From: Cochliopodium minus
Lineage: Eukaryota > Discosea > Himatismenida > Cochliopodiidae
NCBI GenBank assembly: GCA_024220525.1
Contig: JAMYWO010000092.1
Coordinates: 117,776-150,823, forward strand
Reading direction: 5' to 3'
Length of the DNA: 33,048 nucleotides
Shown here: positions 4,893-27,173 of the stretch, in pieces
Numbering within the stretch: position 1 is the stretch's first letter
Layout of the letters: every line of letters begins with the position of its first letter
The notes under the pieces: generated by a model
The model's input: the letters and a program-made list of their open reading frames with translations, nothing else
Told to the model about the DNA's origin: nothing
Database searches by the model: none
Translations under genes and position numbers: made by a program

Positions 4893-7800
4893 ATGAGTGT
4901 TAATGAAGAGTTGATAAATCAAATCATGGAAATGGGTTTTGAAAGAGATCATATAAAGCAAGCTATATATAAAACAAAATCTTCAATACATCAAAGAGTA
5001 TTGGACTATTTGTTCGAAAATCCATTTGATCCGTAAAATACCAAACAAATAAAAAGAAGTCCATATATTATCAACATTAAAATGAATTGAAAAATGATTG
5101 ATAATTGGATCAATATTAATCAACAAATACAAATATATTATGTTATTTTTGGATCTTTTGATCAATTAAATAGTACCTTATGTTGAGATTTTCCAAATTA
5201 TTTGGCCAATTAAATTCTCACAAATAAATTTTCATTATGAGTTTTCAAATTATTAAATTTTATGCTTGAATACAATAGAGAAATGAAGATAATAGAACCT
5301 CAACCAAAAAAACCCAAAAATGAAAATCAATATGTTGAATTTCAACCCCCACCACCTATTCCTTCATTCAATGACAACGATTTTGTAGGATCTGATCCAC
5401 CACCTCCTCCACCAATGGAAGACATTCCCTCAACGAAATTACAAACAACACCTTTGAACACATCAAAAAATGAAAATGATAATAATAATAAACCTCAAAC
5501 ATTAGAAGAAGGAATCAAATTAAAAGCAGAATCATCAAATACAAATGAAATAGAATACAAGGTAAATAATTTTTGTATTTTTTGAAAATTTTCATTTTTT
5601 TTTTTTTTTGAATATTTCAGCCAAAAACATCTGGAATGGTTGGATTATCGAACCAAGGTAATTTTTCTAATTAAAAAAAAAAATCAAAAAAAAATTTAAA
5701 GAGATCAAATAATTTTTAAAACCAAAATTTTCTGTAAATAAGGTGCGACTTGTTACATGAACTCCTTAATACAAGCTTTGTTTGCAACTCCAAATTTTAG
5801 GAAATTAGTTTACGAATATAAATACAACAAAGGTTCTAAAAATTTTTTTTATTTTTATTTTTGTATTTTTTTTTTATATTTTTTATTTTTTATTGTTTTT
5901 ATTTTTTATATTTTATATTATTTTTAATATTTTTTATTTTTATTGTTTTTATTTTTTATTGTTTTATTTTTTAGATAAGGATGGATTAGAGGAAGAGAAT
6001 ATTGTTTTTCAGCTCCAGAAATTGTTTTCGTTGTTACAGATTGGAGCTAATGGGGTTGTTGATACTATAGGCCTCACCAAATCTTTTGGATGGGATCAAC
6101 AAGTCTACCAACAACAAGGTAAATTTATATAAAAATAAAAAATAAAAAAAATAAAAAATAAAAAATAAAAAATAAAAAATAAAATAAAAAATAAAAAATA
6201 AAAAATAAAAAATAAAAATAAAAAATAATGAAATATTAAAAATAATAAAAATAAAAAATCTTGTTTTAGATGTTCAAGAATTATGTCGTGTTTTGTTCGA
6301 GGCATTGGAGACTTCATTCAAGGAAAATGAAAACGATGTGGGTGAAGAGAAAATAACACCTTATTTCAAATCTTTTGTTTCTGATTATTTGAAATGTCTT
6401 GATTGTCAAACTGAAAAATTCAGGGATGATCCTTACCTTGATTTTCCTCTTCATTTAGATGAAGGTAATTTTGAAAAATAAAAATTTACAATAAAAAGAA
6501 AAAAAATTAAAAAAAATTTTAAATTTACAAAACAATTAAATTTATTAAATTTATTGAAAAATAAAATTTAAAATTATTTTTTATTATTTTACAATTAAAA
6601 TAAATGTTATAATAATTCAAAAATAAATGTAATGAAATTTAGTTTATAAATAAATAAATTATAATTCAAATTTATTTCCAAATTCTTTTTGAAAGTATTT
6701 TTTTTAAAAAATTATTTTTAAAAAGATGACATTAACTCGATGGAAAAGGCTCTCAATTTTTTTGTGACACCAGAAACGTTAGAAGAAGTGTCATGCTCTC
6801 ACTGCAACAAAAAAACAACCACCCTCAAAGGATTAAAGTTCAGCACCCTTTCCAACATTTTGACTTTTCACTTGAAAAGGTTCACGTACAGTAAAGTAAC
6901 TTATTCTAGAATCAAAATTTCCAAGTCTGTCACTTTTCCTCTTTTGATTGACATGAATCTTTGGCTCAATACTTCCATCAATCCAAATGACCCTTCTACA
7001 TTACCTCAACCTGTTGATTTGTACAAAAAAACATTTAGATTTTTTTATTATTTATAATTATTTTTTTTTATTTTTTATTGTTTATTGTTTATTGTTTCAA
7101 ATTTTAAATTTTTTATTTTATTTTTAATTATTTTTTTTTTATTTTTTTTCATTTTTTCATTTTTTCATTTTTTATTTTTTATTATTTATTTTTTATTTTT
7201 TCTTTTTTATTTTTTATTTTCTATTTTTTTATTGATATTTAATTCTTTTTTTTTATTGATATTTAATTCTTTTAAAATTAAATATTTTTCATTTTATTTT
7301 TATTTTTATTTTTAAAAGGTATGATCATGGAGAGGGTGAGAGGTTGACTACTGCACAAGCAAAACAAAAAATAATAGACGACAATAAACAAAACTTTTAT
7401 GAACTCTATTCTGTGTTGATCCACAGAGGTGGTTGTTTTGGGTACGTTTCCCTTTTTTTTTAAAATTTTATTCAGTTTAATATTTACTTAATAAAGAGGT
7501 CATTATTATGCTTTTGTTAAAAATTTTGAAGATGATAAATGGTATAATACTGGTAAAAAAATAATTTAAAAAATTTAATTTAAAACATTTTTTTTTTTTG
7601 ATTTTTAAAATTTTAATTGATATTTATCTATTTTTATTATTATTTAATTTATTAACATTTTTTTTTTTAAAAAAAAGATGATTCGAATGTTTGCGAAATA
7701 AAAGAAGAGGAGGTGATAAAAATGTCTGAACAAGGAAGCGGAGGAAATTTAACAAGCACCAACGCATATTACCTCCTCTACAGAAAAATATCGAAGGAAA

Positions 7801-10800
7801 ACATCAACAAAATCGATGAGGAATTAATTCCGCAGTACCTCAAATCTTCTATTGTCGAACAAAACAAAAATTGGGAAGAAAAAAAAGAAAAGTTTCAGCT
7901 CAAAATCAACAAAGTCACCCCCAACTTTTATTTTCAGGATCAAGTTTATCAATTTCAATTTGAGAAGACTCTCACTCTTCAACAAATGAAAGATTTGCTT
8001 TACATAGTAAAAAAAAAAAATGATTTTTTTAATTATATTTGTTTGTTTTTTATTTTTAATTTTGTTTGTTTATTTTATTTTTTTAATTAATTTTTTTAAT
8101 TTTTTTTAATTTTTTTTAATTTTTTTTAATTTTTTTTAATTTTTTTAAATTAATTTTTCTGTTTTCATTTTTTTCAATATAGGAACTTGAACTAGAAAGT
8201 AAAGGAATTGGAAAAGATGATTTCAGAGTTAGAGGGTTCAATAAACATACCAAGGTTTTAATTTCTTATTTTTAATTTTATTTTTAATTTATGTATTAAA
8301 ATATTTCAATTTATTTTTTATTTTTAAAGATTTTATTCTTAATTTTTTTCAATTTATTTATATTTATTATTTTAATATTTTATTTATATTTATTTTTTAT
8401 TTTTTTAATTTTGTTTTATTGTTTATTTTTTATTTTTTTAACAAAGGTTCCAACAGAAATATATGAAGAGTCCCAAATGAACGAAACACTCGAAAAATTA
8501 GTTTTTTTCAATGGAAAATGTGTTTACATTCAAACGAGAGAAAAGGGGGAACATTGGGAAAAAGAAAACATGATGAAACTTGAAATTGTTTTGGCGAATC
8601 ATTCTCTCAAGAGATTTGAAGAAGTTTTTCATGTCATTTTGCCCAAAAACAGCAACGTAGAAGATTTAAGAAGTGCTCTTTTTGATCAGTATGCATCCCT
8701 CACTTCCCTTTTCTTTGGAGAAAAAGATGACTCTGGTTATTTTTTTCTTTCCTTTTATTTTTTTTATTTTTATATTAATTAATTTGTTATTTTTATTTTT
8801 TGATTATTTGATTATTTTATTTTTCATTTTTGAATTATTTTTTGTTATAAAAAATTTTTTTCTTATTAGATTTTTAATTATTTTTAGTATTTTTATATTT
8901 TATGTAAATAGACTTATTTTATTTAATTATTTTTATTTGAAATTTTCATAAAGATTTATCATTATTAATTAATTTATTAATTAATTTATTTGATAATCTT
9001 TTTTTTTCTTTATTAGATAAAAAAGAAGAAAAGTTGAAGAAAATTAGAATCATAAGAATACACCAAAACACATTCGAATTGGTGGACGATTCATTCATAG
9101 AAAACAAAAAAGAAAAGAACATTCTTTCAAAGTACTTTTCTATTGTGGACAACTCTCGTTTGTACGTCGAACTCGGAGTGAGCTCTTTTTTGGACGAAAA
9201 CTCTGTTTTGGTTCCCGTTTCTTTGTCTCCCTCCTCCTCCTTTGTTGTTCATCAGTTTGACATCCAATTAAATACTATTGAAATCAAATTCAATCACCCT
9301 GAGTCTCCCCTCTCTTTTGACCGCGAACTTTTGATAGATAAAAGGTTTTTCTTGTTTTTTATTCTTTTTTTTTTTAAATATATAAAACAATTTTTAATAT
9401 TTTGATATTTGTTATTTTTTTTTTGTTAATTAGAGTTTGATATTTTTATTAATTTTTTGTTTTTTGATCAAATAATTTTATTTTGTTATTTTCATTTTTT
9501 ATTTTATTTTTTATTTTGTATTTTTGTTATTTATTTTTTATTTTTTTCATATTTTCATTTCTATTTTTATTTTTTTCATTTTTTATTTCATATTTTTTAT
9601 TTTTTTATCTTTTCATTTTTAATTTTTTCTATTTTTATTTTTTTATTATATTTGTTAATTATCGAGTTTGATATTTTTTATTTTTTACGTTTTTATTTTT
9701 TAATTTATCTTTTTTTTTTATTTTTTTCATATTTTCATTTCTATTTTTATTTTTTTTATTTTTTATTTTGTATCTTCTTTTTATTTATTTATTTTTGCTA
9801 TAGATCAACATTTGCTGTTCTTAAAAAAGAAATAGGAGAAAAGCTGGGGATACCCGAGAAAGAATTCATTCTTATGAATAATTTCAACAAAAAAGAGTAC
9901 AAAAACGATGAGTTATCAGTAGACGAATCGAAAATATTGGATGGTTGCGCCATTTTTGTAGAAAGAGGATCTCCCATTTCCCAAAACGAGTTTCGCGTTA
10001 GATTTTTCACTTATAAATTCAATTTGAATGCTTCTCCCTTTTCTTTTTCTTTTGACCTTCCCGTTTTGAAAATTACTACTCTTGTAAAAAAAAAATTTCT
10101 TCAAATTTTTTTAACAAAAAAATTAAAACAATTTAAATTTTAAAATTGATAAAAAATAAAAAAAAAATATTAACAAAATTTTATGTTCCAAAATATAAAA
10201 TAAAATAAAATTGAAATAAATTAAATAAATAAATCTTTAAAAATATAAAATAATTTATATGTAAATTTTTAAAATTTTTTTAAAACTTTTTAAATGTATT
10301 CTTAATTATTATTTGGGAACATAAAGTTAACTATTTTTGTGAAAATTTTTAAAATTTTTTCAATTATTATCTTTTTGAATAAAGGGAGAAGTGAAGAAGA
10401 AAATATTGGAGAAAGAGAAGGGAGGGAGAGAAGAGAAAATAAGGGTGAGAGAAAAAATGCAGCACAGAGCTTCCAACCTTCTCACTGGAGACCTCGAATC
10501 CCCCTTTCATCTCCTCCTCTCCTCCAAACTAAAAGATGGTTATGAACTCTGTTATCAGCTCCTGGAAGATCCATCAAACGAAAAAGATGACAAAGAAGGT
10601 AATTAATTTAATAATTTATTTTAAAATCAAATAAATTTTATTTATTTTATTTATTTTATTTATTTTATTTATTTTATTTATTTTATTTATCAAATTTATC
10701 AAATTTATCAAATTTATCAAATTTATCAAATTTATCAAATTTATTTAAAATAGAGAATAAAGAAGATAAAGAGAACAATAAAGAAGTAAAACATTATGTT

Positions 10801-11717
10801 GAGGATTTACATGTTGAAAAGATGATTTTCATTGAAATCATTCAATGGAACAGGAACGGTTCTGGTGTCTTAGATGAAAGCGTAAAAATTTATTTTTTAA
10901 TTTTTTATTATTTTATTAATTTTAATTTTTTAATTTTATATTTTTTTAATTTTATTTTTTTAATTTTAATTTTTTTGAATATTTTGATAGATGATGAAAT
11001 AGTTTTGAAAAAGGATCATCCCTTTTGGCTTTGAAGCACATTATAGCAGACAAACACAAATTACACATTTCAGAAGTCAAAATTGTTAAAGAAAATAGGG
11101 GAAAAGCCAACATGCTTTCCACCCATCTTGAAGTCATATCAGGTAAAATAAAAAGAAATTAAAAATTAAACACAAAATAAAAAAATAAAAATAAAAAAAT
11201 AAAATAAAATGTTTCAAAAAATAAACAAAATTAAAGAAATGAAAATTTAAAAAAATTAAAAATGAAAATAAAAATTTTAAAATTTAAAAAAAATAAAAAA
11301 TAAAATAAAATAAAATGTTTCAAAAATGTTTCAAAAAATGTTTAAAATAAAATTAAAATAAAAAAATTAAATAAAATCAAAAAAATCAAAAATCATAAAA
11401 ATCAAAAAAATAAAAAAATCAAAAAAAATCAAAAAGGTAAACTGGGATATGCAAGATGACATGATTTTAGAAACGAGTCCTTGGTACTTGAAGACAGGAG
11501 AACTTTGGTTTGGAAAGATTGCAAGAACTTTGAGTCGTGGAGAGAGTTTTCAGAAAGCATGTACTCTGTTGACAACAACCCTAACAAAAAATCGGAGGAA
11601 CCCACCCTCAAAATAAAAACAAAGTTTGACAGAGAAAGGGACAAAGAAAAACAATTAGAGTTGGACAAGCAAAATGAAATTCAAATTATTGAAGAAAATG
11701 AAAATAAAATTAATTAG
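4893..11717 (+). CDS. USP47-like ubiquitin hydrolase with N-terminal UBA domain
   Basis: Cysteine protease that removes ubiquitin. Exons 1-16 stay in frame for 1001 codons: 4893-5032, 5279-5561, 5621-5657, 5743-5832, 5975-6118, 6270-6464, 6726-7020, 7319-7441, 7497-7552, 7678-8006, 8183-8254, 8447-8735, 9017-9344, 9804-10083, 10385-10598, 10754-10881. Residues 4-45 are UBA-like (IMEMGFERDHIKQAI). A proline-rich linker follows. The Cys box is NQGATCYMNSLIQALF (Cys157), the two CxxC pairs are CLDCQ and CSHCN, the His box is GGHYYAF (His438), and the third residue lies in STNAYYLLY (Asn483). SFGWDQQ and DVQELCRVLFEALE are typical of USP47. Ubiquitin-like segments follow. The tail (exons about 10991-11142 and 11437-11717, ending LEDRRTLVWKD and an acidic/lysine-rich end) matches the USP47 C terminus. 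It holds a phase mismatch, a short T-run at 11003-11006 and an in-frame TGA at 11457-11459. Joining of exon 1 is inferred; a start at 5262 or 5283 is the alternative. Confidence 0.85.
8091..8140. repeat. (TTTTTTTAAT)5 decamer repeat in USP intron
   Basis: Five perfect 10-nt units inside the intron between 8006 and 8183. Confidence 0.85.
10637..10744. repeat. Two-variant 9-nt minisatellite in USP intron
   Basis: About six units of a TTATTTTAT-type 9-mer (10637-10690), then six perfect CAAATTTAT units (10691-10744), inside the 10599-10753 intron. The two units share ATTTAT and differ in three bases. The reverse complement of the second unit recurs in the P2X intron near 23900. Confidence 0.85.
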
Positions 11718-11920
11718 ATTTATTTTTAAAATAATAAATTAAATAAATAAATTAAATTAAAATAAAAAACATCAACTTCTACTTAAATTTATTTGTTAAC
11801 TTATTACATTAAAGTTAAAATAAAAAAGAAATATTACTCCATTTATTTTCAGTATTTAAAAATTTTTTTTTTTATTTTTTATTTAATTTAATTGTAAAAT
11901 AAAAAAAAAATCAAAAACTG

Positions 11921-16359: not shown

Positions 16360-19300
16360 TCAATTCTCAAAAGAAATATTGTTAGAATCTCGATTCTCTT
16401 TGATGGCAGTAACATTGTCGTTGGGATTAATGGTAAGAGCAGTCGAATTTGCGTTTGGATTGTTAAAAGTAAGACTGGTAGTATTCAAAACATTGTTGGC
16501 ATTGATGAGTGATTCATTTTTGAAAAAAGCATACAAATTGGGAGAATCAAACTCGGTGCTTCTCTTCTTTAAACCAGAAGAAGAAGAACCGCTCCCATTT
16601 TCGAAAGTCTTCAAAGTGATACCAGGAAAAGGAGAAGGGTGAGGATTGGAAGTTTCTCCGCTTAACTGAGGGAAAACAAAAGAAGTTTGAGTAGGGGGTG
16701 TGGAAGTAGAAGGGGAATGAATGGAAGAAAAGTTTTGCAAAGAGAAAACTTCGTTGGTATTATTAGCGTTACTAGGGTTACTCGTGCTGTTGATATTGTT
16801 GTTGGTAGTACTGATGCTGATAGAACTAAAATTGTTACTAATATTGTTGATGTTACTGTTTAAGGAGCTCAAATGAAAAATGTTGTTTGGAAGGGTTCCC
16901 GAGTTTCTCGTGGTATTACTGCTTGCTTTGTTATTGTTTACACTCAAATCTACATTGATGTTGTTACTGGAATTGTTGTTAGAATTGTTGCTGGAATTGT
17001 TTCCACTGCTCCCCATAGAATTATTGCCAAAGTAGCTGAAGGAGGGAGAGGTGCTGAAACCGTTTCCGCTTGGAGGGTGGAGGGTGTTGGGGGGGATGGT
17101 TGGTGTATCAGAATTGCTCTTGTTGTTCACCGTTTTAAGAGGAATACCAGGGAAAGGAGATGGAAACTTGAGATGAATTCCAGGAAAAGGAATCTAAAAA
17201 TAAAAATAAATTAAAGTTTAAAAAATAAAACTAGTAAAATAAAACACAAAATAACAATAAATTTAAAATTTTTAAATAAAAACCTTTTAGAAATAAATAG
17301 TGTGGAAAAAAAATCAATAAAATTAAAAACTTTAATGTAGAAAATAAACAAACAATAAATAAATATAAAATAAAAAAATTATTAAAGAAATAAAAAAAAT
17401 AAATATCGAAAAAATGGAGGAAATAAAAATTTTTTTTTTACAGATTCATCCATTTCACGAGAAGTGTGGATCGTCTTGGTCAACTTCTTTGCAACTTTTC
17501 CTATTCTGTGAGCAATGTCTTTCATTTTGGGTCTTTTCTTGGGCTCGTGTTGCCAGCAATTTTGTATGAGTTCCTTGTACATTGAGTCCACCTCTTCTGG
17601 AATGAGCAACCTAAAGCCCTTTCCTGTCAATGAAGCAACTTCTCTGCTGTTCTTGGTATTAGCGAAAGGAATCTTTAAATAAAAAAAAATTAATATTTGA
17701 TTAAAAAATAAAAAATAAAAAATTTTTAAAAATAAAAAATAAAAATAAAAAAATAAAAATAAATATAAAAAAATAAAAAATTAAAAATAAATATAAAAAA
17801 TAAAAAAATAAAAACAAATTTTATTAAAATAATATTTAATGGAAAAGTTACGTGTCCTGTTGTGAGCTCCCATACTATGGTCCCAAATGCAAAAACATCT
17901 ACTGCTTTTTCACAAAAACCCTTGTTGGAAACTTCAGGGGCTCTCCACCGAGGATGCCCAACTGGTTGGTTAGGGCTCAAATATCCTCCTTTTCAAATTA
18001 AAAAAGAATAAGTTTTTTAAATTAATCAAAGAAATCACTTAATTTCATAAATAGAATAATAGAGATATAAAAGAATGGAGATATACAATAGGTATAGAGA
18101 GCTGATATAATTGATATATTTACAAAAAATTCTCAAATTATGTTTTACCTTTTGTTTGCTGAGAGATTCCTAGATCTGATATCTTCACTTTACCATTCTT
18201 ATAAAGAATGTTTTCGGAAGATAAATCTCTGTGCACCAATGGAGGTTTCAAGGAATGCATCATCTTTATTTTTTCAAGATAGGTGAAATGATTAATAAAA
18301 GAAAGAAAGTGAGATAAATTTCTTACCTTTAATCCTTCTGCTATACTTAATGCATAGGAAGTCATCTTTGAAAAAGTAAGATTTGCTTTCTGGTTGTGCA
18401 ACAAGGAGTATAATGAACATTCCATCAGCTCTGTGACGATGCATAAGTGTGGTTTAAGGCAAACACCTATCATCTGAACCACATAAGGATTGATTTGGCA
18501 AAGGTAGAGAGAATTAATCTCATTTTTAAACGATTCTATTGAACGTTTCAAATTGTTTTTCTTAAGTGCTTTCACTGCAACATTTTCGTTGTTATAAGTT
18601 GCCTTCCAAACATTTGAAAAAGCTCCTGTGAGGATATAAAAGAAGATCAGTGAGTTATTGATTATAAATGAGTTATAAATAGTATTTTACCTTCTCCTAT
18701 TTTTTCCTGTAAATTATTTAAGAGAAAAAAAAGTGAATAAGTTTTATAATAAAAATATTAAAGCCCCTATGTTGTTTTGATATATATCGATATAATTCAT
18801 AAATTATTGAAAATAAAAAGTATTTATGAATTGGAGATTAAAAATAAGGAAATCTTTTTTTTTTTTTGAATAAAGTTATACCTTGAATGCTAGATCATTA
18901 TAGTTTATTATTTTTATTGTCTTCTTTTGTAACAAGAAATTTTCCAATTCCTCCATATCTACAGTTTCCTCTTCGATTATTTCTTCAGAATCACTTTTTG
19001 AAGATCCACTGTAATAATCTTTTTTTCTCTGATCAGATGTTTCGTTGATAATGCTCAATTTCTTGATGTTACGCTGAATTTTGAGCTCCTCAGAATTTTC
19101 TTCTATTTCATCTTCAATTATTTCAGATTTGATCTTATTAGAGATTCTGTTCCTGATTTTTTTATTGCTGTTTCTATTACTGGTAAGATATTCCACCTCA
19201 TTATCATTATTGTCCTCTGAAAAATCTTCCACTTGGGTATTACCCTCAATAAAGTCTTCATCCAATTCTCCATGCAAGGAATGTCTCAAAGTATCAAATG

Positions 19301-19721
19301 ATTCAGAGGAGATATCAGATGAATCCCTCCTCTTTCTGATTTTCATAGAATCAAATTGATATCTAAGAGGGATATAAGATGATGTTTGTTTCTTTCTTTT
19401 GATAGAATTTGTGAATGAATCAAATGAATCTCTATCATTAGTTGGTGTAGAATCTAATGATGAATATGATGAATTTGGAGAGTTGGGACTTGATGTATAA
19501 TACTCTCTATCATAAGATAAAAACATATTTCCTCTTTGTGTATTTTGAATCGAATTTTCGGAATTCCTTTTCCTTAATTTCAATTCATTGTTTGACATTG
19601 CCATTATTTGCTTTTTTGATGGTATATCCACTCTTCCAGGGTTTGGCCATTTTATCTGTTTCTTTATTCTCCCTGATGTTCTATCCATCTGTTGTGAATT
19701 ATTGTTATTTATCATATACAT
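16360..19721 (-). CDS. TKL-like protein kinase with DLG motif and Asn/Ser-rich tail
   Basis: Seven exons give 823 residues in frame: 19721-18882, 18706-18691, 18625-18327, 18263-18149, 17988-17852, 17672-17442, 17193-16360. Residues 1-275 are disordered, with mixed Ser, acidic and basic runs. The kinase domain is about residues 281-546: P-loop IGEGAFSNVW, VAVK (Lys304), FKNEI, VHRDLSSENIL (Asp398), SDLG (Asp415), WRAPE (Glu442), DVFAFGTIVWEL and the C-lobe CWQHEPKKRPKM. The HRDLSSEN catalytic loop and the GHPRWRAPE region fit the tyrosine-kinase-like group common in amoebae. The usual DFG is DLG, which is tolerated in some active kinases. Exon 2 is only 16 nt and encodes the start of the P-loop. 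The 277-residue tail is Asn/Ser/Thr-rich and carries PFPGI at about 548, 559 and 734. All metal- and ATP-binding residues are present, so the kinase should be active. Confidence 0.85.
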
Positions 19722-20228
19722 CCCTTATTTATCTTTCCAATTTAATTTTTAAAAAAATAATTCAATTTTTTTTTATATTTTAACCAAATAAAAAAATTTA
19801 AATTATAAATATTTATTAAACATATCCTCTTTAAAATAGGTCTAATCTATGATTTTCAAATTTCAGTTATCTTTTAATTTTATTATTTTTCCATTCTCTC
19901 AGTTCGGATTAAAAAAAAAAAATAATTTATATAAAATATATATATGCATTATCTATATCTTACTTTTGACAAAAATATATAATACCAATTGAACTCAAAA
20001 ACTTTATAAAATACATAATTTTCAAAAAAGGGAGGCATATCTTTATGGTTATAAAGCAATCTTCTATTCAAAAAAAAATTAAGGAGAATTAAATAATGGA
20101 TTAGATTTTATTGTCTGAAACAAATATTGCAACTAATCCCAATTTATACAATTTTTCATTTGATTATACTTCAAAATTGTGAGAAAAAAAAATTTATAAA
20201 AAAAAAAAAAGATTGTTGTATAAAATAT
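19722..20228. other. Intergenic region between divergent genes
   Basis: The largest gene-free stretch in the window, between the kinase start (minus) and the SLX9-like start (plus). It is A/T-rich with short A-runs but less repetitive than the introns. No ORF, tRNA or named motif is seen. It presumably holds both promoters. Confidence 0.5.
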
Positions 20229-20882
20229 ATGCCAAAAGTATCAAAACAAGGTGTAAATAAGAGGGTTTCTGAATTAAGAAAGAAAGATAAAGAAACCAAA
20301 AGAGATATTTTGTTGGAAGGAATAAAACCAAGAAAGAAAATAAAAACAAAAAGAGAAAAAAGATTGGAAAAAAAAGAAAATTTTAAAGGAAGTAAAAAAA
20401 TAAATATCCATGTATTACCTATAAAATCAAACACCTTTCATTTATACAATTATTTTTTTTTCTATAAAGAATTCAAATCCAATAATCCCGCCCTTTTATT
20501 TAATGATATATATACCTTGCCAAAACCAAAACCAATCAAACAAAAGAAAGCACCATCAATAGAATTAAATTCGATAGTCGAAGTGATAAAAGAGGTAGAA
20601 AAAAATCAAAAACAAGAGAAAGATTTTCAAGATGAAGTAAGAATAGAGATGCAAAAAATGAAGAAATTAAATCCAAAAAAAATCGAAGAGATGGAAAGAG
20701 TGGAAAAGAAACAACTCAACCAAGTATTGTCTCATCCTTCGTTTATTAAAGATCCATTGAGCACAATACAAACACATCTTAATAACTGTTTCGACAACGG
20801 GATATTTTCTTCGGAGAAACCCAAACAAGAAATCCTAAAGAAAAAGAAAAAGAAAAAAAACAAAAACGACATGAAATTTTGA
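20229..20882 (+). CDS. SLX9/FAM207A-like ribosome biogenesis protein
   Basis: Start chosen at MPKVSKQGVNKRVSEL, because the open frame upstream of it is compositionally intergenic. The protein has about 217 codons if unspliced. It is very Lys-rich, with LLEGIKPRKKIKTKREKRLE in the first third, a predicted coiled helix (EVRIEMQKMKKLNPKKIEEM), and near the end KKQLNQVLSHPSFIKDPLST. The last block resembles the conserved SLX9/FAM207A end (basic helix, short SPxF/Y element, then a PLxxI amphipathic helix). SLX9 joins pre-40S particles in the nucleolus. A frame-preserving intron of about 77 nt is possible inside it: donor GTAAAAAAAT near 20392, T-rich tract, acceptor TATAAAG near 20469. It would remove an odd aromatic-rich patch (NYFFFYK). 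The C-terminal poly-Lys is a nucleolar signal. Confidence 0.55.
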   Translation: MPKVSKQGVNKRVSELRKKDKETKRDILLEGIKPRKKIKTKREKRLEKKENFKGSKKINIHVLPIKSNTFHLYNYFFFYKEFKSNNPALLFNDIYTLPKPKPIKQKKAPSIELNSIVEVIKEVEKNQKQEKDFQDEVRIEMQKMKKLNPKKIEEMERVEKKQLNQVLSHPSFIKDPLSTIQTHLNNCFDNGIFSSEKPKQEILKKKKKKKNKNDMKF

Positions 20883-21049: not shown

Positions 21050-21908
21050 TTATCTTTCCCTATTGTATGTTCTTTGTTGGTCGTTGGATTTCAAAGATTT
21101 CTGCTGCTCTTCTCTGTTTTTCTTTTTCAATTCATATTCTTCAGTTCGTTTGATGGAATATTCTTCCATCATCGAATCTGCACCCAACAATCCAGAAAAG
21201 AATACCCCAGATACTGTTCCATAGATCATATATGCCATATAATTTTGAAATCCATTTCTGATCTTTGGGAGGAAGATCACAGAGCTCAATGTGACTCCAC
21301 TTGCCAATCCATGCAACAAAATATCTTCTTTTCCATCTCGAAAATATTGAATGGCCAAAGGCATCGCGAAAAATGCGGCAGCTAATAAAGATAGATTCAC
21401 TGATGAGATCAGTCTATATTTCAATCTTTCTTTCGAAAAATTTACTATCTTTTATTTTTTGAAATAAAGAAGATAGGTTAATGATATTGAATGTGATGTC
21501 AGTGATATTTGTTGATATTTGTTTTTTTTTACACTACTATATATTTTTGGATGTTCTACTGGGACTTGATATTTTCTTATTTTTTGATTGGTATAGTTTT
21601 TTCCTTTTATATGAACAAGATGATAAGGATTGAAATGTTTGGGATATGTGATATAATAAACATTATATTGTAAATAGAAAGGATATATCTATTGTATTGG
21701 ATTATTCATAAATAATTTTTTTACCTTCAATTACTGCAATAATGATATTCATTGATATAGTGGTTCCTGTTGTGATTAATGAAAATTTTGTCCATTTGTC
21801 AAATAATTTTTGAAATAAATTTTCTTGATAGAAAGGTATAGCAATCGGTTCTATTTGTGATTGTTTGGGTAGTTGATTGGCGTCTTTATTTTCCCCATTT
21901 TCAGACAT
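21050..21908 (-). CDS. Four-helix membrane protein, weakly Tim17/22/23-like
   Basis: Two exons give 192 residues in frame: 21908-21725 and 21444-21050, with the acceptor GATAG. The start MSENGENKDANQLP follows an A-run. Residues 1-40 are hydrophilic. Four hydrophobic segments follow: FSLITTGTTISMNIIIAVI, LSLLAAAFFAMPLAI, a short LASGVTLSSVIFLP and MIYGTVSGVFFSGLLGA. The loop RDGKEDILLHGLASG resembles the Arg...Lys-Glu-Asp...Gly pattern between helices 2 and 3 of Tim17/Tim22/Tim23-type inner-membrane proteins, but I see no decisive motif. The C terminus is a charged helix (EEYELKKKNREEQQK). A mitochondrial (or related organelle) location is an inference from this resemblance only. The gene diverges from the P2X gene with 44 bp between start codons, and is convergent with the SLX9-like gene (167 bp). 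Confidence 0.55.
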
Positions 21909-21952
21909 TTTTTTTTTTAATAAAATAAAATTGAACTTTTCATTGATCCACA
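21909..21952. promoter_or_regulatory. 44-bp bidirectional start region
   Basis: Only 44 bp separate the ATG of the four-helix membrane protein (minus) from the ATG of the P2X receptor (plus). Part of it is an A-run (read on the minus strand). Both 5' leaders must be very short, or the transcripts overlap at their 5' ends. No TATA-type or other motif can be assigned with confidence. Confidence 0.55.
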
Positions 21953-24900
21953 ATGAAGCAAAAATGTATGGAATTCTTCTATCTTCAAACAGATCAATTG
22001 GTGGAGATTAGAAATCCTTGGATAGGTCAATATAAGAATTATATTTTTTAAATAAAACAATTGATGAAACAACATAGTTTATCCACAAACCAATTCACTA
22101 TTGATAAGTTTATAGTAAAAATATGATTGCACTTCTTTATTAGCAATTTTATATTCAAAGGATATACAGTTTCAAAAAACTAATATCTTTTTCTAAATCA
22201 AAAAATTTAGGATTATTGTTGTATAGCATTCAATTGATTATAGTGATTTATGTGATTGGAATAGCAATTATATATGAACGAGGTAAAAATTTCATATTTT
22301 CACATCCACAAAAAATCTCAAAATAAAAAATGTTAAACGTAATATATAGAATATCAATCAAAGGATAATGCAATAGGAACAGTGATGGGTGAAAAAAGAT
22401 TTTTTTAATTATTAATTTTATTTGTTATTTTTGTTTGTCGAAATGAATGATAGCGAAAGTGAAAGGAATATCAGGAAGAACGCAGATACATGATTCATAT
22501 GATTTCGTTAATCCTCCTCTTGAAAATGATGCAGTTGTAAAAAAAAATTTAAAAAATAAAAAGATTATTAATTAAAAAATTTTAAATTTCAAAAATTTAA
22601 AATGATATCAAATTAAAAATTAAAAGCTCAAAATCAAAAAAATATTTTAAAAATATTTAAAATATTTCAAAAAAATATCAAAAATATTTAAATTATTTCA
22701 AAAAAATTTAAAAAATTTTTTTAAAATATTCATTGATTTTTTTTAATTTCAAGATGGTGGGAGTAGTTTTAGCAAAAACGAAGATGCAGCAAAGAGGAGT
22801 TTGTGATGGTAATGATAATTCTGAAAAATGTACAAGTGACGCAGATTGTGTGGAAGGAAAATCAACAACCAACGGTTACACAAACGGGTAAATAAAAAAC
22901 AAAAAAATGAACATTAAAATCTAATTTTTAAAATTATTTAGTACTTGTAATATTAATACTGGATTTTGTTATATTGATGCATGGTATCTTTTTTTTTTAT
23001 TTTTTATTTTTTTATTTTTTATTTTTTTACTTTTTTATTTTTTATTTTATTTTTTTTGTTTATGACTATTTTTATTTTTTTATTTTTTTGTTTTATTTTT
23101 TATTTTTTAATTGTTTTTAACTACTGGTTTTTTATTTTTTATTTTTTTATTTTTTTATTTTTTTATTTTTAAATTTTTTTTAAAATTTTTATTAGGTGCC
23201 CTCCTGAAGATGATTCAGTGAGGTATTATCTTGATGGAGTTGAAGATTCAACAGGTAATACAAAATCGTTTTTCTTCATATTTCTCTTAATCTCAAAAAT
23301 TTTTTCATTTTCTTAGTGTTTTTTAAAGTTAATGTTGAATTTCCAAGAGTAAAAAATTTTTTTTATTTCTTTATTTTATTTCTTAATTTTTTAATTTGAA
23401 ATTTTAATTATCATAATGTTTTATAATTATTTTTATAATTATTTTTTTATTTTTTATTTATTTTTTATTTATTTTATTTTTTTTATTCTTATTTTCATTT
23501 TTAATTATATTTGAGTTTATTCTTATTTTCATTTTTTGTTTTAATTACATTTTTTTATTATTTTAATTATTATTCATTTTTTAATTAAAAATTTTTTATT
23601 TTCTTGATTTTTATTTATTATTTCTTATTTTTTCAATTATTATTTTTTAAAACATTTTTTATTTTAAAAGTGGCAAATAATAGCTGATAATGTTGGCAAA
23701 ACACCACTCGTTCAATACAATGTTTCTGATCCTGATAACAAAGGGGTCAACGTGTGGGCGGTCAAAGAGTAAAATTTTAATTAAAATAAAATAAATAAAA
23801 TAAAAATAAATATAAAATAAAAATAAATTTGACAAATAAAATAAATAATAAAAATAATAATAAATAAAATAAAAATAAATAAAAGAAATAAAATAAATTT
23901 GATAAATTTGATAAATAAAAAAAATTTGATAAATTTGATAAATTTGATAAATAAATAAATTTGATAAATAAAATAAATTTGATAAATTTGATAAATAAAA
24001 TAAAAAATAAATAAAATAAATAAAATAAATTTGATAAATTTGATAAATTTGATAAATAAAATAAAAATTTAAAAATTGTTCATAAAAGTATTTTGAGATT
24101 ATCTGGTATTGATGACATCAGCAAAATTACTTCGTCAGGTATTTATTTATCTTTTTTTATTTTATTTTTTTCATTATTATTTCTTAATTTATTAATTTTC
24201 TTTCAAAAGGAACTACAATTGCTTTTTTGGTGGAATATAATTGTAACTTGGATAAATCCGTCACAGATTGTAAACCTGAGTATTCGTAATTTTTTTTAAT
24301 TTTTTTAATTTTAATTTTTTATTCTTCTTATTTTTTTTTATTTTATTTTTAATCTTTATTATTTATTTTTTTATTTTTTTCATGTAAGATTTTCGAGGAT
24401 AGACGATCCATCTTCGTTTTCACCGGGATTCAACTTTAGATACGTGGACAGATACTACACTAAAAATGAAAATGGAGAAGAAATCCAAACTAGGTAAAAA
24501 AGAAAAGAAATTATTTCATAAAAAAATATTTAATAAAAAAAATTTTTAAAGAAAAAAAAATTATTAGAAAAAAAAAGAAATTATTTTTTTTTAAAAATCA
24601 AATTAATAAAATTGAAAAAAAATTTTTTTGATTAAAAAAAAAAGAGATATCATTAAAGTTTGGGGTGTCAGAATTACTTTTTTAGTGTCAGGATTAGGAA
24701 GGAAATTTGACTCTCCAAGTAATAAATCATTCTTTATTAAAGTTTATTCACTTTTAAATTTAAAATATGATTTTAGTTCCTTTTTTTGTAACTTTTGGAA
24801 GTGGTATCGGAATTGTAAATTTTATTTTTTATTTTTTATTTTTTATTTTTTTATTTTTTATTTTTATTTTTATTTTTTATTTTTTTTATTATTTTAAATA

Positions 24901-25057
24901 GTTGGCAATGGCCACTGTGATATGTGATGTATTGATTGTCTACATTTTTCCACAAAAGCACTATTATCGTTCCCACAAATTTTATCCTGTAGATGACAAA
25001 ACCAACGCAACAGACGAGAACATTCTCTTGTTGAGTGATGACAACAAATATATTTAA
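21953..25057 (+). CDS. P2X-type ATP-gated cation channel
   Basis: Fifteen exons give 376 residues in frame: 21953-22025, 22211-22282, 22350-22388, 22454-22536, 22754-22887, 22942-22983, 23196-23254, 23317-23348, 23671-23768, 24089-24138, 24210-24285, 24389-24493, 24645-24718, 24777-24814, 24902-25057. The length and plan are those of P2X subunits. A short N terminus is followed by TM1 (LLLYSIQLIIVIYVIGIAII), the ectodomain, TM2 (FGSGIGILAMATVICD...) and a cytosolic tail with the YxxxK motif YRSHK (347-351). ATP-contact residues are visible: AKVKG (Lys63, Lys65), GFNFRY (Asn268, Arg270) and Lys292 in IIKVWG. Cysteines 106, 115, 121, 136, 143 and 149 form the head-domain set, and 239/248 the YNCNLD...C pair; the remaining conserved pair is absent. 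The N-terminal YxTxK motif is degenerate (LQTDQ, Thr13). P2X trimers open to Na+, K+ and Ca2+ on ATP binding, at the surface or on contractile vacuoles in amoebae. Confidence 0.92.
23880..24060. repeat. GATAAATTT minisatellite in P2X intron
   Basis: Many copies of TTTGATAAA (9-nt period), mixed with AAATAAAAT-type units, in the intron 23769-24088. It is the reverse complement of the array in the USP intron at 10637-10744. Confidence 0.8.
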
Positions 25058-25198: not shown

Positions 25199-27173
25199 TT
25201 AACACAAAAAACTAAGTAAATAAATTAACAATCTCTTTGGAATAAGATAAACTACACAATTTTTTTCTTTTCTGAGCAACAACATGACCAACTTTAATTT
25301 GGAGTAGAGAATCATTAAACGGGTGTTGTTTTTGGTAATCTCTTCTATTCTTTTGAGAGAGGGAAGCTCTGATAATTTGGCAACAGAAAGAAACCTTATT
25401 GTTTGATTATTTTCAATGACTTTGCACAAATTATTTATTCCTAAAAAATAAAAATTAAAATTAAAAATTAAAATTTAAAATTAAAAATTAAAATTTAACA
25501 TATAAAAAATAAAAATAAAAAATAATTTCACCATCAACATCAAAATTTCCGTTACAAACATCGAGAGAAGTGAGAGTGTTGTTATACCTCAAAGCATCAG
25601 ATATATGATCCAAGCCAGCATTAGTAAGAGGATTGTTATTGATCTTCAAAGTTTTCAAGGAAGAGTTGGATTTGAGAGAATTAGACAAATACATGACACC
25701 TTCTTCTCTGATGCAACAAAAATGAATGACCAAGTATTTCAGAGAATTGTTGTTTTCAAGCATTTTGGAGATTTGAATCATGTTTTCAACGTTTAGATTG
25801 TTGTTGCAAAGTTCCAAGTAGATTAGCGATTTGTTGTGTGATAAAGCTTCTGTCAGTGTTTTTATCGATTTATCTTTCTTTTTTAATTTTTTTATTTTTA
25901 TTATATTATTTTTAAAATAAAAAATATCTTTTATTTGTATTTATTTATTATTTTTATTTTATTTGCATTTATTTTATTATATTTATTTTATTTATATTTA
26001 TTTACTTTATTACAATTTTATTTATTTTTTATTTTTTATATTTAAAATACTCAATTTAAAATTAATATATTTTTTTTATTTTTATTATAATTTTATTTTT
26101 TTACCAATTCAATTCTTGTTAAATATAGAAATGACAAAGTGTTGTTTTGAGAAAGGGAAGAAGCAAAATGATGAAAACCTTCATCCATTCTATTCGAACG
26201 AATGTCCAAATGAGTCAAAACCTTGTCATTCACCATCCATTCCCCCAACTCTTTCCCGGCCTTCTCCCCCTCGATTTTATTTCCCCTCAAATCCAAATAT
26301 GTCAGAGTTTTATTGTCTTTGAAAGCATCCAACAAATATTTCATTCCTTTCGTTTCTTCAGTTAAAAAAAAATAATTAATTTCATCTTTTTATATTTTAA
26401 AATAAATTTTAAAAAAATTTAATGATTTTTTGAAAATTTTATTATAATTTTTTATAATTTTATTGTTTGTATTAGTTTTTGCCTAATTCATTTTCTCTCA
26501 CATCCAATGAAGTCAAAGAGTGTCCTCTTTTCAAATTTTTAGCTAACTCTTTCGCCTATAATCCAAGCATTAAGTTTCAATTTATTTATTTATTTTTTTT
26601 GATTATTTTGTTTCGTTTTTGTTTGGAATTTTTTATTTTTTATTTTTTTTTTTTAATTTTTTTTTATGCTATAAATAAAATTTTTTTATTTTTTTTTTTT
26701 ACTCCATTTGCTTTCATATTATTACCACCCAAATACATATAAGTGACATATCTCAATTGCAAATTATTAAATAAATGGCAGATATCGCTTGATTCCAATC
26801 TGTTGAAGCCTATATTCAGAGATTTCAAGGTGGTTTTTTCTTTGAGCACATTGGAGAGATGGGAGATGCCCTTGGATTCCAAGTTGTTGAAATAGAGATC
26901 CAATTCTGTCAGATTTTTATTCTTTCTGAGAAATGGGCAAGCCAATATGAATTCTTCTCCCAAATTCATTTGTGCAAGATTTATAAGCTTGTTATCTGAA
27001 TTTAACTATTTGATGAATTTATGAATATCAGGCGTATATTAATTTTTTGTTAACGAAGAATTTCAAAAAAAATATCCTCTTTGAAATTTAAAATTTAAAA
27101 AAAAAATTCCAAAATGATTTTTTGATATTACTATCTTTCTTGCTTCATTATTCAAAAACAATTTATTTCCCAT
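25199..27173 (-). CDS. RI/NLRC3-type leucine-rich-repeat protein
   Basis: Seven exons give 422 residues in frame: 27173-27132, 27076-27055, 26995-26703, 26555-26483, 26355-26105, 25877-25532, 25440-25199. The start MGNKLFLNNEARKI follows a long A-run. The repeats are about 28 residues with the ribonuclease-inhibitor pattern: LTELDLYFNNLESKGISHLS, LKSLNIGFNRLESSDIC, LTSLDVRENEL, LTYLDLRGNKIEGEKAGKEL, LTHLDIRSNRMDEGFHHF, LKTLKINNNPLTNAGLDHI and LTSLDVCNGNFDVDG. No NACHT, F-box or other domain is seen. Such proteins act as protein-binding scaffolds; the partner is unknown. Exon 2 is 22 nt. The intron between 26483 and 26355 appears to use a GC donor (TTAG|GCAAAA). The gene is convergent with P2X, with 141 bp between stops. 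Confidence 0.8.

Follow-up and report, generated by a model that had tools for sequence, protein, structure and literature searches.

The locus analysed here is a predicted P2X receptor gene at positions 21953-25057 on the plus strand of the window (the whole stretch of DNA under study, 33,048 nucleotides; coordinates without a contig or locus prefix refer to it). As rebuilt by hand from the raw sequence, the gene consists of 15 exons (32-156 bases) and 14 introns (54-322 bases), all 14 with GT-AG borders, and its product has 376 amino acids. The GC content is 34.8% in the coding sequence and 2-21% in the introns, several of which are simple T- or A-rich repeats; that of the window is 17-30% along the whole length. 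The splice sites of this predicted model were picked by hand with P2X homology as a guide, which raises the score of the joined protein. On the other hand, the exons themselves are independent of the splice choice, since an intron-blind, six-frame search of the whole assembly (44.65 Mb, 598 contigs) with the Pfam P2X_receptor profile reached exon 11 in its unspliced form (24.3 bits, E 2.8e-4, below the 27-bit cut-off).

Several other open frames were observed around the gene. Immediately upstream, an open frame lies on the minus strand (21702-21952) with its first clear ATG at 21906-21908; 44 bases separate this codon from the start of the P2X reading frame, so that the two genes would be divided by a very short head-to-head spacer if this frame is real. 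Leucine-rich-repeat open frames (LRR_6, above the cut-off) are located downstream at 25488-25940 and 26664-27005 (minus strand). Elsewhere in the window there are fragments of a protein kinase (18138-18686, minus strand) and of a ubiquitin hydrolase (6722-7057, plus strand), a protein whose match to SLX9 is barely above the cut-off (20097-20882, plus strand) and a long asparagine-rich open frame (16360-17193); another asparagine-rich frame, at L034:4607-6442, adjoins a gene read by eye as a putative RecQ-type helicase.

The 376-residue product matched nearly the full Pfam P2X_receptor profile (PF00864; profile positions 4-359 of 361) with 279.2 bits (cut-off 27) and an E value of 6.5e-83, which is the outcome of a search against P2X families that an earlier, sequence-only reading of this DNA had suggested as a check. 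In PDB, 39 distinct sequences were found at E <= 0.01, and 34 of them are P2X receptors at E <= 1e-31, counting 5f1c, an entry listed as an uncharacterized protein that we take to be a tick P2X. The remaining five, retinol-binding proteins with E values of 0.001-0.0032, were taken as chance matches. The best match was a P2X1 chain (8zt5, E 5.8e-55), to which residues 7-358 could be aligned with 121 identities in 345 aligned residues (35.1%). The identification as a P2X receptor made in the sequence-only reading is thus well founded, and the protein is an additional member of an already known family. In a single-protein scan, relatives were confirmed for 0 of 11 pattern matches in IMG/VR virus contigs and for 0 of 100 in prokaryote genome contigs, and phage records searched in translation yielded none, which is expected because such collections hold viruses and prokaryotes.

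A 19-residue hydropathy scan detected exactly two hydrophobic stretches, in windows 21-49 and 313-343, which corresponds to the P2X layout, in which two membrane helices flank a long segment, here the predicted ectodomain. Exon 1 (21953-22025, residues 1-25) encodes the N-terminus that precedes the first helix, exon 2 (22211-22282, residues 25-49) covers the first hydrophobic stretch and exon 3 (22350-22388, residues 49-62) follows it. The second stretch begins in exon 14 (24777-24814, residues 313-325) and is completed in exon 15 (24902-25057, residues 326-376 and the stop codon), which also encodes a short C-tail.

A second P2X gene was recovered from a weak match of the genome search at C393:11751-13953. 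It has 15 exons, encodes 367 amino acids and shows GT-AG borders at all 14 introns, although its 20-base micro-exon represents one choice among several possible splicings. Its product matched the Pfam P2X_receptor profile with 234.6 bits and P2X4 in PDB with an E value of 1.7e-43, and 140 of 357 aligned residues (39.2%) are identical to the window protein. Both proteins start with MKxK. The paralogue retains the N-terminal YRTVK, the lysines of KPKG, NFR, the third lysine, the pore Asp and YXXXK (as YKENK); in addition, it has an extra cysteine (Cys86) and seven N-glycosylation sequons. Two of the 14 introns agree with those of the window gene in both place and phase, namely at residue 148 (phase 2), which is the 3' junction of exon 6, and at residue 228 (phase 1), the 3' junction of exon 10 (24089-24138, residues 211-228). 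The 12 unmatched introns may point to an ancient duplication, to intron turnover or to errors at some of the junctions.

On the 30,000-base contig C393, a stretch of 1,197 bases was also observed twice (10634-11830 and 18321-19516, 99.7% identical). The match at C393:19438 was rejected as a further P2X gene, as all that this copy includes of the paralogue is 80 of its 87 exon 1 bases; it is either a recent duplication or partial gene copy, or an assembly artefact. A match at C10:272215 (E 0.038) was also discarded because its open frame does not read as P2X. The genome therefore contains at least two P2X genes, from a search that scored the best candidates only, exon by exon.

To compare individual residues, we used a residue map taken from the PDB-search alignment to P2X1 8zt5. 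Seven residues of the window protein, K63, K65, T167, N268, F269, R270 and K292, correspond to Lys68, Lys70, Thr186, Asn290, Phe291, Arg292 and Lys309 of P2X1. The lysine pair (KVKG, 22456-22464) is encoded by exon 4 (22454-22536, residues 62-89), Thr167 by exon 7 (23196-23254, residues 148-168), which is followed by exon 8 (23317-23348, residues 168-178), Asn268-Phe269-Arg270 by exon 12 (24389-24493, residues 253-288) and Lys292 by exon 13 (24645-24718, residues 288-313). Hence the lysine pair, NFR and the third lysine of the P2X ATP site are all present, in agreement with the earlier statement that Lys63/Lys65, Asn268, Arg270 and Lys292 are kept. Seven of the eight ATP-pocket columns checked, a set of positions presumed to represent the P2X1 pocket, are identical to P2X1, the exception being Phe185, which is replaced by Ser166. 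The conserved pore Asp is D334, and the C-terminal YXXXK is kept as Y347-R-S-H-K351 (24965-24979), both in exon 15. All P2X subunits share this motif, which regulates surface expression (PMC3360091, available part); its presence fits surface stability and leaves both the plasma membrane and an internal compartment as candidate locations. A glycosylation sequon of P2X1 near the pocket, NFT, reads DST in the window protein, whose remaining ectodomain sequons are N133 and N195.

The N-terminal motif is different. In exon 1, L11-Q-T-D-Q15 (21983-21997) stands in place of Y16-D-T-P-R20 of P2X1, so the YxTxK/R site is gone, as the sequence-only reading had already noticed; we did not count this site as defining P2X by itself. 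A consensus protein kinase C site is described for P2X N-termini in the available part of PMC3360091, which also cites a paper whose title links this site to P2X2 desensitisation. Loss of YxTxK may alter desensitisation, as the sequence-only reading proposed.

Based on these sequence features, it is most likely (with a probability of roughly 0.9) that this is a P2X receptor gene that looks intact and that its product is a trimeric ATP-gated channel. Three subunits, each with two membrane helices, would form a trimeric cation channel, ATP would be bound between subunits by the seven residues aligned above (K63 to K292), and its binding would open the pore; the lining of this pore would come from the second helix, where the conserved Asp is retained. 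Permeability to Ca2+ and a cellular location would likewise be predicted by analogy within the family. Four features were counted against this channel: the change from Phe185 to Ser166, the absence of YxTxK, the change from NFT to DST, and the 12 of 14 introns that are unlike those of the paralogue. Some of them would also suit a P2X relative that is no longer an ATP channel on its own, or that functions only in heteromers with the second subunit, the paralogue: LQTDQ replaces YxTxR and Ser166 replaces Phe185, the paralogue has kept YRTVK, and one of the five Dictyostelium P2X proteins, DdP2XC, forms no functional channels (PMC3853471, available part). However, K63, K65, N268, R270, K292, the pore Asp and YXXXK are all retained and the reading frame is open over 15 exons, and we consider such a loss of independent function unlikely.

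The product contains ten cysteines, at residues 5, 106, 115, 121, 136, 143, 149, 239, 248 and 333. In the alignment to P2X1, Cys106, 115, 121, 136, 143, 149, 239 and 248 fall on positions 117, 126, 132, 149, 159, 165, 261 and 270, whereas the columns of P2X1 217 and 227 are occupied by Tyr194 and Val204. Eight of the ten paired ectodomain columns are therefore identical to P2X1, short of the full ten-cysteine set of vertebrate type. The human P2X1 cysteine list in PMC3853471 (section 12, available part) agrees with this numbering; its first cysteine is given as C177 in one place and as C117 in another. The head domain is encoded by exon 5 (22754-22887, residues 90-134; Cys106, Cys115 and Cys121), exon 6 (22942-22983, residues 134-148; Cys136 and Cys143) and the start of exon 7 (Cys149, 23197-23199). 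The edge of the exon beside Cys149 is fixed because the junction at residue 148 is common to the paralogue. Exon 9 (23671-23768, residues 179-211) covers the region of the P2X1 217-227 disulphide and is devoid of cysteines, and exon 11 (24210-24285, residues 228-253), the one matched without splicing, contains Cys239 and Cys248. The proposed set of eight ectodomain cysteines, with six in the head, the 239/248 pair and no pair in between, could thus be placed directly on P2X1 columns.

Of the five disulphides confirmed in P2X receptors, three lie in the head (PMC3360091, available part). The paralogue, like the window protein, has the 239/248 pair and lacks the 217/227 pair, and it keeps four of the six head cysteines; at the columns of both Cys106 and Cys149 it has Tyr, with which its alignment to P2X4 concurs. 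The absence of both 106-149 partners while the other four head cysteines are kept fits a genuine 106-149 disulphide and lends this predicted bond indirect support, short of proof, as the joint loss is a single case in a single gene. The pairings 115-136, 121-143 and 239-248 are predicted from homology. Alternatively, the cysteines of the window protein might be present yet free, or paired otherwise. This appears very unlikely to us: their columns match exactly those of a family with five known bonds (PMC3360091), the two partners of one predicted bond are jointly absent from the paralogue, and the same partners (117/165) are jointly absent from the receptor of Monosiga (PMC3853471), so far as the available parts of these papers go. 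We favour an ectodomain that would be stabilised by four bonds, 106-149, 115-136, 121-143 and 239-248.

An animal origin of the window gene, by contamination or horizontal transfer, could also account for its animal-like head, and the PDB matches that carry the P2X name are presumably all from animals, which says little since protist P2X proteins seem to be absent from the PDB set; with the GC content at 17-30% throughout the window and 2-21% in the P2X introns, a 39%-identical paralogue on a different contig of the same assembly, and both genes being without the 217/227 pair, which is retained in vertebrate receptors according to the part of the literature available, this origin is highly improbable.

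Other genes of the same assembly were also inspected. Among the best 60 of 70 matches, ribosomal protein L3 scored 541.9 bits with 7qiw, 538.7 bits with 6qzp and 500.1 bits with 5an9, L3 chains that we take to be from tomato, human and Dictyostelium, respectively; the lower score with the last of these speaks against a dictyostelid host. An EF-like GTPase (L039) and two divergent copies of EF-1alpha (L037 and L038, with 274 of 285 residues identical to each other) seem, from the predicted products, to be present in the same genome. The putative EF-1alpha copies read WYKGPTL and appear to lack the opisthokont insertion; together with the putative EF-like GTPase, they speak against an opisthokont host. 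Pairs of EF-like and EF-1alpha are known from Stramenopiles, Apusomonadida, Goniomonadida and Fungi (PMC3699394, available part). No match in the assembly was obtained for COX1, with the controls responding in 8 of 14 cases and organelle contigs possibly missing, or for pyruvate:ferredoxin oxidoreductase, with the controls responding in 10 of 14; the lack of an integrin beta match carries no weight, as its control responded in 0 of 14. A match to the Fe-hydrogenase family was found in the genome, and its motifs were read by eye as those of Nar1.

P2X receptors have been divided into two deep branches, one with those of Dictyostelium, green algae, fungi and some non-bilaterian animals and the other with those of human and most animals (PMC10620158, available part), and a high score against animal P2X is not a placement on either of them. 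One tentative reading, which we hold to be doubtful, is that the host is neither an opisthokont nor a dictyostelid and lies near the base of opisthokonts (apusomonad-like), with its P2X in the animal-type branch. If this were true, both the disulphide head and a complete ATP site would be older than animals, their absence from Dictyostelium would be a secondary loss, and the two genes, which differ by one disulphide and one N-terminal motif, would offer a natural test of the 106-149 bond and of YxTxK. The window protein, as a protist receptor rich in animal motifs, and the paralogue, which seems to have dropped one predicted disulphide as a unit, help to place the origin of the disulphide head in time, and the two receptors form a ready pair for probing the roles of single bonds.

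Comparison with known receptors places the window protein among several partly similar systems. The structures of P2X1 and P2X4 (8zt5 and 9bqh) share with it the overall layout, eight of the ten cysteines, most ATP-site residues, the pore Asp and YXXXK; P2X1 8zt5 differs in having the 217/227 pair, YxTxR and Phe185, where the window protein has no such pair, LQTDQ and Ser. The P2XA-E proteins of Dictyostelium discoideum resemble it in being protist receptors encoded by multiple genes per genome. In contrast to the window protein, all ten cysteines are missing from Dictyostelium P2XA (PMC3853471, section 12), which bears out, for P2XA and within the available part of that source, the earlier statement that Dictyostelium receptors lack most of them; the same source locates the Dictyostelium family on the contractile vacuole. 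A protein of Physarum carries a P2X receptor domain next to a cyclic-nucleotide-binding domain (PMC4758236, available part), so amoebozoan P2X is not confined to Dictyostelium.

The nearest counterparts in cysteine content are found in two other protists, as described in the available part of PMC3853471. The Monosiga brevicollis receptor lacks C117 and C165, like the paralogue on C393; in contrast, the window protein has the 117/165 pair and is without 217/227. The receptor of Ostreococcus tauri, for which 23% identity to a comparison partner is given, lacks C217 and C227 and thus has the same eight ectodomain cysteines as the window protein (section 12). Therefore, of the suggestion that a metazoan-like head in a protist is notable, the eight-cysteine set stands and the novelty was overstated. 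Cysteine sets vary among primitive P2X receptors without following the species tree (PMC3853471), and this published picture is left unchanged by the window protein. The two eight-cysteine receptors are the reverse of each other in three motifs: the algal one retains YXTXK/R and carries YESWL at the YXXXK site and Asn in place of the pore Asp (PMC3853471), whereas the window protein has lost the first and retained the other two. With YXXXK and the pore Asp, it represents a protist receptor that has more animal motifs than are reported for the algal one.
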